64,000 nt of DNA from Arthrobacter sp. MYb229 (GTDB lineage Bacteria > Actinomycetota > Actinomycetes > Actinomycetales > Micrococcaceae). Location: positions 186,001 through 250,000 of the forward strand of contig NZ_PCPS01000004.1 of the NCBI RefSeq assembly GCF_002975405.1, read 5' to 3'. The position numbers and the translations under genes are program-made. Positions 56,399 to 60,038 of the stretch are shown one piece after another. Every line of letters begins with the position of its first letter. Position 1 is the stretch's first letter. The notes below the pieces were generated by a model. The model was given only the letters and a program-made list of their open reading frames with translations. It was not told where the DNA came from and did not search any database.

Positions 56399-58123
56399 CT
56401 AGTTCTTGGAAATTTTGCCGGTCATCGTTGCCACCGGCAGGAGGAACATTGGCTTCATGAACACCCAAGCCGCCGCGACCACCGCCACCGAGACCAAGAA
56501 GATCACCAGCCCCCATGCATCGGCCGCGTCCCGCGAGGCATACATGTGGTTCAGGTTCTTCAACGCGCCGGTGGTGAATACCAGGAATACGTGGACCAGC
56601 ACGAAGGCGACGAAGAAGAGCATCACCGGGAAATGCACCTTGCGGGCCAGCTCGATCGGATAGACCCGGTTCAAGGCCTTGGGCTGAGTCGGCCACCAGC
56701 TGGACATCCGGACACCGGTCACAATGGCCAGCGGTGCCGCCACGTAGATCACGAGGAAGTAGGAGGTCATCTGCAAGGCGTTGTAATGAATCCAGCCGTT
56801 TTCGACAGGCCAATTGAGCGAGGCATATTGAATGGCGCCGGAGATCATATTCGGGAAGACATCCCAGCTGGTCGGAACCACTCGCATCCACTGGCCGGTA
56901 ACGGCCAGCAGGATCACGAAGACCAATCCGTTCAGCACCCACAATGCATCCAGAGCTTGGTGGGTCCAGATGCTGAGCGAATATTTCTTGGGGCTATTTC
57001 CCTTCGGGGAGAACCAGGAGTTCGCCTTGGGCGTCCACATCGCTGCCGGTCGTTTCTCATGACGTACCTGTAACCCGGTGCGGATAATCAGCACGATAAA
57101 GAACATATTCAAGAAATGCTGCCAACCAAGCCAAGCCGGAATTCCAAGCGGCGCAGAGTCGGGCATGGTTGAATGCCCGTCATAGGTGGCGATGAAGTCC
57201 TGGATTGGTTCCAGCGTGCGCAAGCCGCGCGCGGCAAGAACCACCAGCAGGGCCACAATGACCGCTCCGATCACCATGATCGCCGGTTTGACCCAGGGCT
57301 TCATCTTGATCTTTGAGGTTCCTTGGGCATCGGAGGCCGGGCGCTTTTCCGCGACGGGAGGCTGGGCCGCGCTCGCGGCCTGCGCGGCTGGTTCCGCAAC
57401 GGCCGGTGGCCTCTGGGCCGCGGGCTCGGCGGCTTCTTCAACGACCGGTGGTTGCCCGAGTGCGGCTGCATCGTCGGCGACTGGTTCGGAAACCGGGACA
57501 GCCACTGGGGCCTCGGCAACGGGAGCCGCAGACTCGGAGGACTTTCCGGCAGTCGCATCCTCGCGTTGGCGCAGGGGAGTGTAGCCCTGCATGCGATTGG
57601 ACGGAACTGCAGCCCGTTCGGATGAATCCGCCGAAGCTGCCTCGGCGCCCGAAGCGGCAATTGCCGGAGCAGCCGGTTCCGGGGCCGGTGCCGGCGGAGT
57701 TTCGCTCGGCGGTGCCGCCGTCTTTGCTGCGGCCACGCCAGCGGTTTCCGCAGCGGCGGCAGCCGGTGCCGCGACCTGTGCGCCAGTGCTGGCGGCGTCC
57801 GCGGCCGGAGCCCGGAGCGGGGTATAGCCCTGCATGCGTTGGCGTGAGGAGCTAGCGGCGGTGTTCGAGACGGGCGCCGGCACAGGCTCAGGCTGAACGG
57901 CCGCCGTCTCTGCCGGTGCAGGAGCCTGTTCTGGGGCCGGAGCGCTCTGCACTGGGGGAGCGGCGGGTACCGGCTCGCTGGTTACCGGTTCGGTGACCGG
58001 TGCTGCGGGCACGCTCGCCGTCGGTGGTGTCTCAATTTTCTGTGCAGGCTCGGCAGCCGCATCGGGTTTAACCCCGCCCTTGGCGCGCAGGGGCGTGTAG
58101 CCTGCCATCCGTTGCTTGGTCAT
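56399..58123 (-). CDS. Membrane b-type cytochrome with three-repeat N-terminal extension
   Basis: 574 residues. The C-terminal part (about 275-574) has five or six transmembrane helices with the spaced His of b561-like di-haem cytochromes (GWQHFLNM, IWTHQALDAL, KVHFPVML, LVHVFLVF). The N-terminal 270 residues are soluble and Ala/Pro/Glu-rich, and contain three copies of RM[AQ]GYTPLR at about 5-13, 96-104 and 177-185. The b-type domain probably moves electrons across or within the membrane. It lies 78 bases after etfA on the same strand and may accept electrons from ETF-linked oxidation (inference). Start ATG 58123. Confidence 0.85.
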   Translation of the reverse strand: MTKQRMAGYTPLRAKGGVKPDAAAEPAQKIETPPTASVPAAPVTEPVTSEPVPAAPPVQSAPAPEQAPAPAETAAVQPEPVPAPVSNTAASSSRQRMQGYTPLRAPAADAASTGAQVAAPAAAAAETAGVAAAKTAAPPSETPPAPAPEPAAPAIAASGAEAASADSSERAAVPSNRMQGYTPLRQREDATAGKSSESAAPVAEAPVAVPVSEPVADDAAALGQPPVVEEAAEPAAQRPPAVAEPAAQAASAAQPPVAEKRPASDAQGTSKIKMKPWVKPAIMVIGAVIVALLVVLAARGLRTLEPIQDFIATYDGHSTMPDSAPLGIPAWLGWQHFLNMFFIVLIIRTGLQVRHEKRPAAMWTPKANSWFSPKGNSPKKYSLSIWTHQALDALWVLNGLVFVILLAVTGQWMRVVPTSWDVFPNMISGAIQYASLNWPVENGWIHYNALQMTSYFLVIYVAAPLAIVTGVRMSSWWPTQPKALNRVYPIELARKVHFPVMLFFVAFVLVHVFLVFTTGALKNLNHMYASRDAADAWGLVIFLVSVAVVAAAWVFMKPMFLLPVATMTGKISKN

Positions 58124-58201: not shown

Positions 58202-59194
58202 TTACCCTTGGCGGGTGCGGATTTCCTCGAGCAGTTTCGGGACTACGGTAAACAAGTCGCCAACGATGCCGAAGTCTGCGTGGTCGAAGATCGGCGCATT
58301 CTCATCCTTATCGATGGCTACGATCGTCTTGGCGGTCTGCATACCCGCACGGTGCTGAATCGCCCCGGAGATGCCCAAGGCAATGTACAGGTCCGGGGAG
58401 ACGATGACACCGGTCTGGCCCACCTGCAGCTTCGGTGAGACAAAGCCTGAATCCACCGCGGCACGCGAGGCGCCAATCGCCGCGCCGAAGTGATCGGCCA
58501 GCTGCTCGACGATCTCGAATTTTTCCGCCGAGCCCACTCCGCGTCCGCCGGACACGACGATCTTGGCGCTGCGCAGATCCGGACGGGAGGCATCGCTTTG
58601 CATCGCTTCGACCGAGCGGATTTGGGCGCCCTTGGATACCTTGGGCAGAGCCGAAGGCTCGATGATGGTCAGCTGCGGTGCCGCGACGGACTCGGCTCGG
58701 GCATCTACGGCGCCGGGGCGAATCGTGAAGATGCGCGGTCCGCCCTCGACGGTGGATTCTGAGGTGACGTCTCCGCCGAAAATCGAGTGCATGGCGATCG
58801 GCTCGTCCTCGGCCCAGCGCATGCCCACCGCGTCAACGCAGACGGCACCCTCAACCCGAATGGCCAAACGACCGGCAATGGTGCGGCCGGAGGCCGTATT
58901 GGAGAGCAGCACCGCGGCCGGAGCCACGGTGCTGGTGGCCGAGGCGAGCGCCGCCACATCGGCCGAGCCAAGAGCCAAAGCGTCAAGGTCGGTAGGCAGC
59001 AGGTGAACTTCGGCGGCGCCGAGTTCACCGAGCTTGGCCGCAAGCTGCTGCTCTTGGCCCGCGGCGCAGACGGCAACGGCGACCGGGGTACCGAACTGGG
59101 CGGCCGTTCCAAGCAAGCCTGCGGTGGTGTTCTGCGGGGAGCCGTCCGGCGATACCTGGACATGGACGAGCACGCTGTGGGTGGTTTGAACCAT
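58202..59194 (-). CDS. etfA: Electron transfer flavoprotein, alpha subunit
   Basis: EtfA binds FAD and, with EtfB, carries electrons from acyl-CoA dehydrogenases to the respiratory chain. 330 residues. The N-terminal ETF fold is followed by the C-terminal FAD domain, with signature [14 protein letters not shown] (about 215-228), [15 protein letters not shown] split near 250-264, and [20 protein letters not shown] near 273-292 (adenine/pyrophosphate binding). The start is ATG 59194 with AGGAGGA upstream; the longer open frame is not used. etfB precedes it by 64 bases. Confidence 0.96.
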
Positions 59195-59258: not shown

Positions 59259-60038
59259 TTAGATAAAGTGCTTCTCGGCCAGGAAGTCGGCCAGCTGGGT
59301 GGCTGCCGTTCCGTCATCGGTAATCTTTGGTCCGGCGACTCGCTCGGGGCGGTCCTCCGCAGAGACCATCACCGAACGGAAGTGGGCCGCCTCGGGTCCT
59401 GCCTCGATGCCGAGGTCGGCCAGGGTCCACGTTTCCAATGGCTTGGTCTTCGCCGCACGGATTCCCTTGAAGTTCGGGAAGCGTGGCTCGGCGGACTTCT
59501 CCGTCACCGAGACAACGGCGGGTAGCTGCACGCTCAAATTCATGGTGGTTTCGCCCAGCTGGCTGGTTCCGGTCACTTCGCTTGCGCTGATTTCCAATTC
59601 GTCGGCGTAGGGCAGCAGTGGACGGTCAAGGAGTTCGGCGATCATTGCTGGCACCATGCCACCCTTGCCGTCGGTCGATTCGTTGCCTGCAAGAATCAGA
59701 TCGACGTCGAGTTTCGCAAGAGCCGCCGCGAGCACCCGGGCGGTGGAGATCATATCCGACCCAGCCAGCGCCGGGTCGGAGATATGCACCGCCGAATGCG
59801 CGCCCATGGAGAGCAGCCGGCGCAGTGCAAGCACTGCCTTCTCATCTCCCATGGAGACGGCAATGACCTCAACCTCGCCCAATGACTTTTCCGCTTGGAG
59901 TGCGACCTCGCAGGCGCGTTCGCAGATCTCATCGGCGACCAGGTCTGCCGCTGCGCGGTCGAGCATTCCGGTTTGCAGGTCCAAGCGACGGCTCGACCAT
60001 GTATCAGGTACCTGTTTGGTCAGGACGGCGATTTTCAC
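59259..60038 (-). CDS. etfB: Electron transfer flavoprotein, beta subunit
   Basis: EtfB pairs with EtfA and holds AMP and the docking surface for acyl-CoA dehydrogenases. The 259-residue protein begins [14 protein letters not shown] (GTG start at 60038 with AAGGAG upstream), with VAVS-type nucleotide site around [12 protein letters not shown] (about 56-67), [20 protein letters not shown] (about 114-133) and the Leu-rich docking region. It is the first gene of etfB-etfA-cytochrome. The membrane ETF dehydrogenase gene (etfD/FixC type) is absent from the window. Confidence 0.96.

Follow-up and report, generated by a model that had tools for sequence, protein, structure and literature searches.

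Why would a bacterial b-type cytochrome carry one nonapeptide three times on a long arm, and why does its gene stand behind the genes of an electron transfer flavoprotein (ETF)? The question is raised by Arthrobacter sp. MYb229, in the window, which is the whole stretch of 64,000 nucleotides analysed here (Table 1). Overall, the cytochrome has a conserved multivalent peptide arm and probably acts as an ETF:menaquinone oxidoreductase of a kind not described so far.

Table 1. Features of the etfB-etfA-cytochrome set in the window (aa, residues of the cytochrome).
Feature	Positions	Strand	Basis or remark
etfB, electron transfer flavoprotein beta subunit	59259..60038	(-)	PF01012 E 9e-32; solved relatives include ETF beta 1efv_B; GTG start judged from the translation, longer ORF reaches 60104
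etfA, electron transfer flavoprotein alpha subunit	58202..59194	(-)	PF00766 E 1.4e-34, PF01012 E 6e-17; 1efv_A E 2.3e-48; ATG at 59194
Cytochrome b561-family protein with N-terminal arm, 574 aa	56399..58123	(-)	ATG start; 78 bases behind etfA
Ala/Pro-rich arm, aa 1-274	57302..58123	(-)	presumably disordered and cytoplasmic
Motif copy 1, RMAGYTPLR, aa 5-13	58085..58111	(-)	free N-terminal tip
Motif copy 2, RMQGYTPLR, aa 96-104	57812..57838	(-)	
Motif copy 3, RMQGYTPLR, aa 177-185	57569..57595	(-)	
Membrane domain, aa 275-574	56402..57301	(-)	PF01292 over aa 334-525; alignment of homologues

A Pfam scan of the cytochrome at E <= 0.01 returned PF01292 as the only family, with 32.1 bits against a cut-off of 30.1, and found no Fer4_ETF_QO, CCG or Fer4 domain. 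An NCBIfam scan of four of the cytochromes gave no family at E <= 0.001, and a profile of the membrane domain gave no match among solved structures at E <= 0.01. Of 149 family genomes, 114 have the membrane domain, representing 28 of 32 genera; a search of 18 genomes of the same genus found it in 17. A phylum-wide sample of 396 genomes gave 19 with the domain, and the distant frames among these have about 500-690 residues. In the membrane domain the closest named relatives, Arthrobacter sp. MYb213 and Glutamicibacter ardleyensis, reach 87-88%, a likeness by which the window probably belongs to Glutamicibacter. For closer comparison 80 regions were fetched, comprising chosen long-frame copies and a sample of short ones; with the window they hold 56 armed and 25 unarmed homologues, a share that is not to be read as a natural frequency since some long-frame copies (e.g. 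L019-L022, L028, L030, L034) stand outside the neighbour set. A simple rule was used to set the start codons of homologues, and it has probably truncated L122 at the least. Four histidines of the membrane domain (336, 388, 497 and 511) are invariant in 81 of 81 homologues. They could be the ligands of two haems b, and the domain thus fits the term di-haem-like used in the preliminary description of the locus.

The genes run in the order etfB-etfA-cytochrome on one strand, and this arrangement is general among armed homologues: all 56 follow etfB-etfA on the same strand at a distance of up to 176 bases, versus 14 of the 25 unarmed ones (Fisher 4e-7, uncorrected for relatedness, over the 80 chosen regions and the window). 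Within the fetched stretches no etfBA was found at the other 11. Because 14 unarmed cytochromes also stand behind etfBA, the arm is an addition that is not needed for pairing with ETF. In the source genome, the four ETF-domain hits form two EtfBA pairs, each with an armed cytochrome. The second cytochrome, behind its own etfB-etfA, is 44% identical to the first, and its arm carries three spaced, diverged peptides (RRMAGIPPL, RRMAGASNAPL and RRMPGPSTVPV). In front of this second set, beside the paralogue (L077:289-2289), there are genes for a CoA-transferase III and a TetR-type regulator, neighbours that suggest a dedicated acyl-CoA pathway. In the armed set of another genome (G071, L141:3091-4113), etfA has one in-frame TAG in otherwise open sequence, which may reflect a broken gene or a sequencing error.

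The search for an alternative ETF acceptor covered PF05187 and PF02754. Fer4_ETF_QO (PF05187) was found in none of the 149 family genomes; of 14 control genomes, 3 were positive. A search of the source genome for an EtfD-type protein (PF02754) gave no such hit; its only CCG protein is LutA-like and lies beside LutB-like and lactate-permease-like frames (all named by eye). A CCG match is present in 108 of the 149 family genomes, and those among the matches listed are short LutA-like frames of at most 565 aa, except one of 1020 aa from stop to stop (G023); judged from the matches listed, EtfD is likely absent from the family. ETF is therefore kept without either usual acceptor in the source genome, and probably in the family, which makes the cytochrome behind the ETF genes the natural candidate acceptor. 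Linkage to etfBA, together with no other acceptor found in the genome in the PF05187 and PF02754 searches, is the pattern by which an ETF:menaquinone oxidoreductase would be recognised.

The preliminary description had reported a nine-residue peptide recurring at intervals of about 80-90 residues along the arm, and this is borne out: three copies of RM[AQ]GYTPLR are present (starting at residues 5, 96 and 177), their starts 91 and 81 residues apart. None of 200 shuffles of the arm contained three near-identical 8-mers (maximum 2). A search of the 4.0-Mb source genome with a DNA pattern for GYTPLR found three sites, all inside the cytochrome gene. The three copies are encoded by different synonymous codons and are therefore not the product of a recent DNA duplication. 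When three close orthologues are aligned, 24 of the 27 columns in the motifs are identical, versus 74 of the 247 in the linkers (Fisher 3e-9). A phospho-site on the Thr of GYTPLR was considered and rejected, because some orthologues have V, R, Q, K, S or I at this position.

The arm is presumably disordered and on the cytoplasmic side; disorder is read from its composition and from the homologous arm of locus L115, and sidedness from four Lys/Arg within the 15 residues preceding the first membrane helix. In the AlphaFold2 model of L115 the 10-residue mean pLDDT is at most 48 along the whole length of the arm, which supports disorder. Short repeats conserved among fast-drifting linkers, in an arm whose disorder is taken from L115, are the pattern expected of a multi-motif disordered scaffold.

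Two types of arm motif were found in the relatives. Type t1 is RM[AQKVGTD]G[YW]xP[LF] with close variants (e.g. RMAGYTPLK, RMAGYVPLK, RMVGWQPL); its pattern occurs 3-4 times in 15 of 25 arms and 1-2 times in 10 of 25, counting the paralogue-type L077 and L098. In Citricoccus-like and some Arthrobacter genomes the full t1 form is present in the first copy only and is followed by several RMGGAP-like copies. Type t2 is [RK][RQ]GLPRxxGG[DE]PWPP, which is also found in Microbacterium and Agromyces; its GLPR core is present three times in 26 of 29 arms, and the PWPP part is sometimes absent. The gaps between motifs average 78 residues for t1 (sd 12, n 39) and 71 for t2 (sd 20, n 54). The first motif begins within residues 3-10 in 42 of the 56 arms and later in 13, while L137 is unmatched by the pattern. 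Counting copies in relatives had been proposed as a check, and the idea was to be abandoned if the motif proved unconserved or belonged to a known domain; the motif is kept in orthologues across genera, an outcome that favours the preliminary description. At loci L116 and L122 a hybrid motif (QRMAGYTAFRGTPWPP and similar) joins a t1 core to the PWPP end of t2, in proteins of the t1 clade.

A rooted tree of the cytochromes was constructed with the distant homologues L063-L069, L075 and L076 as outgroup (the domain scan covering L065) and without L137, L146, L155 and L156, which had been set aside because of their long branches in an earlier tree. In the rooted tree t1 and t2 form clades (100/99 and 99/92), which are sisters with weak support (93/49), and an unarmed row (L139) lies at the base of t2; the arm may thus have arisen once or twice. 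In a named set, which overlaps the 80 regions, a t1 or t2 motif was found by pattern at 17 of 80 loci and etfBA at all 17 of these, while two loci of the set without etfBA (L191 and L202) have upstream frames of more than 100 residues, from stop to stop, that contain neither motif.

A broad DNA pattern for RMxG[YW]xPL, which misses Q and K after RM and so finds one of the window's three copies, matched in 36 of 149 family genomes. Clusters of at least three pattern sites numbered 14 in 13 genomes, every one at a cytochrome locus; the backward pattern, run as a control, hit 10 genomes at single sites and formed zero clusters. One single scattered site that was looked up (G142, L290) lies within an aldo/keto reductase-like protein, named by eye. 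Contig C1 of genome G107 encodes two armed cytochromes with RMxGW-type peptides (L119 and 2683203-2684078), and pattern sites cluster at each of the two. Records under the labels Sporosarcina and Akkermansiaceae MAG (L183, L241) have copies of the set that resemble those of Arthrobacter, perhaps from mislabelled or mixed assemblies.

A similar arm is known from a different acceptor. EtfD (Rv0338c / MSMEG_0690) is the mycobacterial membrane ETF acceptor that feeds menaquinone, and its C-terminal region is disordered with conserved interspersed repeats (PMC13083937). An AlphaFold3 model of mycobacterial ETF:EtfD in that paper suggests that ETF is contacted through the disordered region, and its Discussion gives the purified EtfD structure as having no ETF bound (PMC13083937). 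EtfD also has homologues in Actinobacteria other than mycobacteria. In the present survey 118 class genomes were searched for CCG proteins and 30 loci were read, plus 17 longer stretches that were picked mostly for long frames and share some genes with the 30. Such an arm is not general on EtfD, as 25 of the 30 frames have at most 166 residues after the last CCG box. Among the 17 longer stretches, ten have clear repeats, three have acidic tails, three are without a long tail (L279, L280, L284) and one is without a CCG frame (L286). The ten repeat-bearing loci have 4-10 copies each: KGLGIAxGAKRPG at four loci (4-5 copies), KGL[GA]MKxxxK-like at two (9 copies), SLFD at three (7-10 copies) and DPWDE at one (5 copies). 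At every one of these loci the chain runs on for just 0-6 residues past the last repeat. A domain scan of five EtfD-type frames found CCG and Fer4 in L273, L274, L276 and L287, and two CCG domains only in L285. One EtfBA pair is present in each of 14 genomes searched, including the ten with repeat-bearing EtfD.

The SLFD tails, whose chains end exactly in SLFDL (L287, L288, L289), look like a docking code of their own. In three further EtfD-type frames (L281, L282, L283) the 376-588 residues after the last CCG box are strongly acidic, with DPEPEPGD-type duplications in two, and on inspection no short motif was visible in these tails. Therefore, an arm with short repeats, one of them at the free tip, can be found on either of two unrelated acceptors, at opposite chain ends, and the obvious shared partner would be ETF. 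Since the donor of EtfD is ETF, the arms on this unrelated protein support ETF as the partner of the cytochrome arm as well.

On balance, we think it somewhat more likely than not that the cytochrome works as an ETF:menaquinone oxidoreductase and that its arm tethers ETF by multivalent contacts. EtfAB, which receives its electrons from acyl-CoA dehydrogenases and comparable enzymes, would pass them to the haems b of the cytochrome and from there to menaquinone, so that in these bacteria the cytochrome would stand in for ETF-QO and EtfD. The arm would be a disordered cytoplasmic tether and its peptides short docking motifs, one at the free tip, that may bind soluble partners, most likely EtfAB, weakly and several at once. 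The tethering would raise the EtfAB concentration at the haem entry site on the cytoplasmic side. In this scheme we infer the cofactors, the quinone reduction, the topology and ETF as the partner of the motif.

Several points count against the proposal. We know of no precedent for direct FAD-to-haem transfer without an Fe-S centre. In addition, the motifs are heterogeneous: t1, t2, the RMAGIPPL, RMAGASNAPL and RMPGPSTVPV peptides of the window protein's own paralogue, and the acidic SLFD and DPWDE of EtfD. GYTPLR is one member of a class that varies from lineage to lineage, and a single binding site for all of these motifs is not obvious; moreover, 10 of the 25 t1-type arms have just 1-2 copies of the full pattern.

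The preliminary description proposed a multivalent binding platform that might gather a partner, ETF or an acyl-CoA dehydrogenase. Such a platform remains the best reading, with a motif that is repeated and conserved across genera, in an arm whose homologue is predicted to be disordered, and with the gene behind etfBA. The binding of ETF by the motif fared less well in structure prediction. In an AlphaFold2 model of the read-through chain EtfB-EtfA-arm of L115, the pLDDT is about 36 around its one RMAGYTP copy and no docking was seen; the alignment had 9 rows with the arm covered by the query alone, so that this is weak evidence. The ETF sequences give a hint. Columns that separate the armed from the unarmed sets fall partly by a loop of EtfB (K199, A196, L207) that we take to be the recognition loop. 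K199 is found in a fraction of 0.85 of the t1-type rows and in all t2 rows, versus R in 14 of 14 unarmed ones, and the states of K199, A196 and L207 are shared with six genomes of KGLG-type EtfD. These alignment columns are suggestive of the arm's partner, but the unarmed ETFs may simply be one clade, and we put no weight on them. Charge complementarity across motif types was also tried as an indication of ETF as the partner and was set aside as confounded by ancestry.

The arm might instead capture the dehydrogenases that feed ETF, such as acyl-CoA dehydrogenases, and so assemble beta-oxidation at the membrane, with the cytochrome still fed by ETF. Several motif types could suit several client enzymes, and the unarmed, etf-less homologue L109 is directly followed by an acyl-CoA dehydrogenase gene (L109:5928-7097), with an AMP-binding enzyme gene upstream. 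However, L109 lacks the arm, it is ETF that is encoded beside every armed gene, and the same arm layout is found on some EtfD, whose known donor is ETF. We regard this possibility as unlikely.

It seems equally unlikely that the peptides organise the cytochrome by binding to the surface of the membrane, to the cytochrome's own domain or to a different respiratory complex. In favour of this, the t1 and t2 motifs are basic and have an aromatic residue or Leu together with Pro, features that membrane-contacting peptides can show. On the other hand, a copy is placed at the far tip of most arms, and the SLFD or DPWDE peptides of EtfD arms are acidic, for which binding to anionic lipids is unexpected.

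A slightly smaller chance can be given to the view that the cytochrome is no ETF acceptor at all, that it has another donor, as its molybdopterin-fusion relatives may have, and that the proximity of etfBA is regulatory only. In the distant outgroup homologue L065 (L065:976-2781) the same cytochrome domain is fused to an MsrP/SorA-like Oxidored_molyb domain (PF00174), and the 11 unarmed homologues without etfBA in the fetched stretch point the same way. Against this, there was no molybdopterin enzyme among the scanned neighbours, and in the source genome both ETF pairs have such a cytochrome while hits for ETF-QO and EtfD-type proteins are absent. The long frames of L063, L064, L066-L069, L075 and L076 are similar to that of L065. 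Finally, although Ala/Pro-rich arms are common in high-GC Actinobacteria, that the arm is a functionless low-complexity extension with repeats left over from duplication is very improbable, given the conservation of motif over linker, the differing synonymous codons and the similar spacing across genera.

With ETF retained as the preferred partner, a wider statement about actinobacterial ETF acceptors is plausible, and we would place it just short of an even chance: a multivalent disordered arm, which fishes for the soluble electron carrier with its spaced docking peptides, arose independently on two unrelated proteins, and the cytochrome is a third class of ETF:quinone oxidoreductase beside ETF-QO and EtfD, in which electrons go from ETF to b haems with no Fe-S centre and whose peptides are quick to change between lineages, as expected of tethers specific to their partner. 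If true, this third class would supply the missing ETF acceptor for Glutamicibacter, Micrococcus, Citricoccus, many Arthrobacter, Microbacterium and Agromyces, and unrelated respiratory enzymes would have evolved disordered multivalent tethering independently of each other. Even for EtfD, the purified structure does not show the encounter with ETF (PMC13083937). If the arms catch several ETF copies at once, a short peptide would be a direct handle on this encounter.

A search of titles and abstract openings found no paper with GYTPLR and no description of this cytochrome or of an etfBA-cytochrome b set in these bacteria. The impression in the preliminary description that no cytochrome of this design had been described agrees with that search; the design itself is less singular, since a comparable one is found at the other chain end of the unrelated EtfD. 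Each element is known by itself, be it the cytochrome b561-type subunit, the ETF acceptor or the disordered arm with motifs, and it is their combination that was not found in the titles and abstract openings searched.

Compared with known systems, the ETF:quinone oxidoreductase of the ETFDH / FixC type (PF05187) is a flavo-iron-sulfur protein with the same proposed job, but its Fer4_ETF_QO domain is absent from the window cytochrome. Members of PF01292 (cytochrome b561 / Ni-Fe hydrogenase b-type subunit family) resemble the cytochrome in a profile match barely over the cut-off and in the four conserved His; the known ones pair with hydrogenases, dehydrogenases or molybdoenzymes and not with ETF, whereas the window cytochrome adjoins ETF genes. 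Mycobacterial EtfD, like the cytochrome, has a long arm with spaced conserved repeats, one at the free tip; however, its arm is C-terminal where that of the cytochrome is N-terminal, and it is an unrelated protein with CCG and Fer4 domains. In the EtfD of genome family f6, taken here for mycobacteria and their kin, the repeat KGLGIAxGAKRPG, with its last copy at the chain end, is loosely similar to the t2 motif RRGLPRVxGGEPWP of cytochrome arms. The carboxysomal CsoS2 and CcmM and the algal EPYC1 are scaffolds that likewise gather copies of one enzyme by repeated short motifs or modules; while these build microcompartments or condensates, the scaffold proposed here would be part of a membrane electron acceptor.
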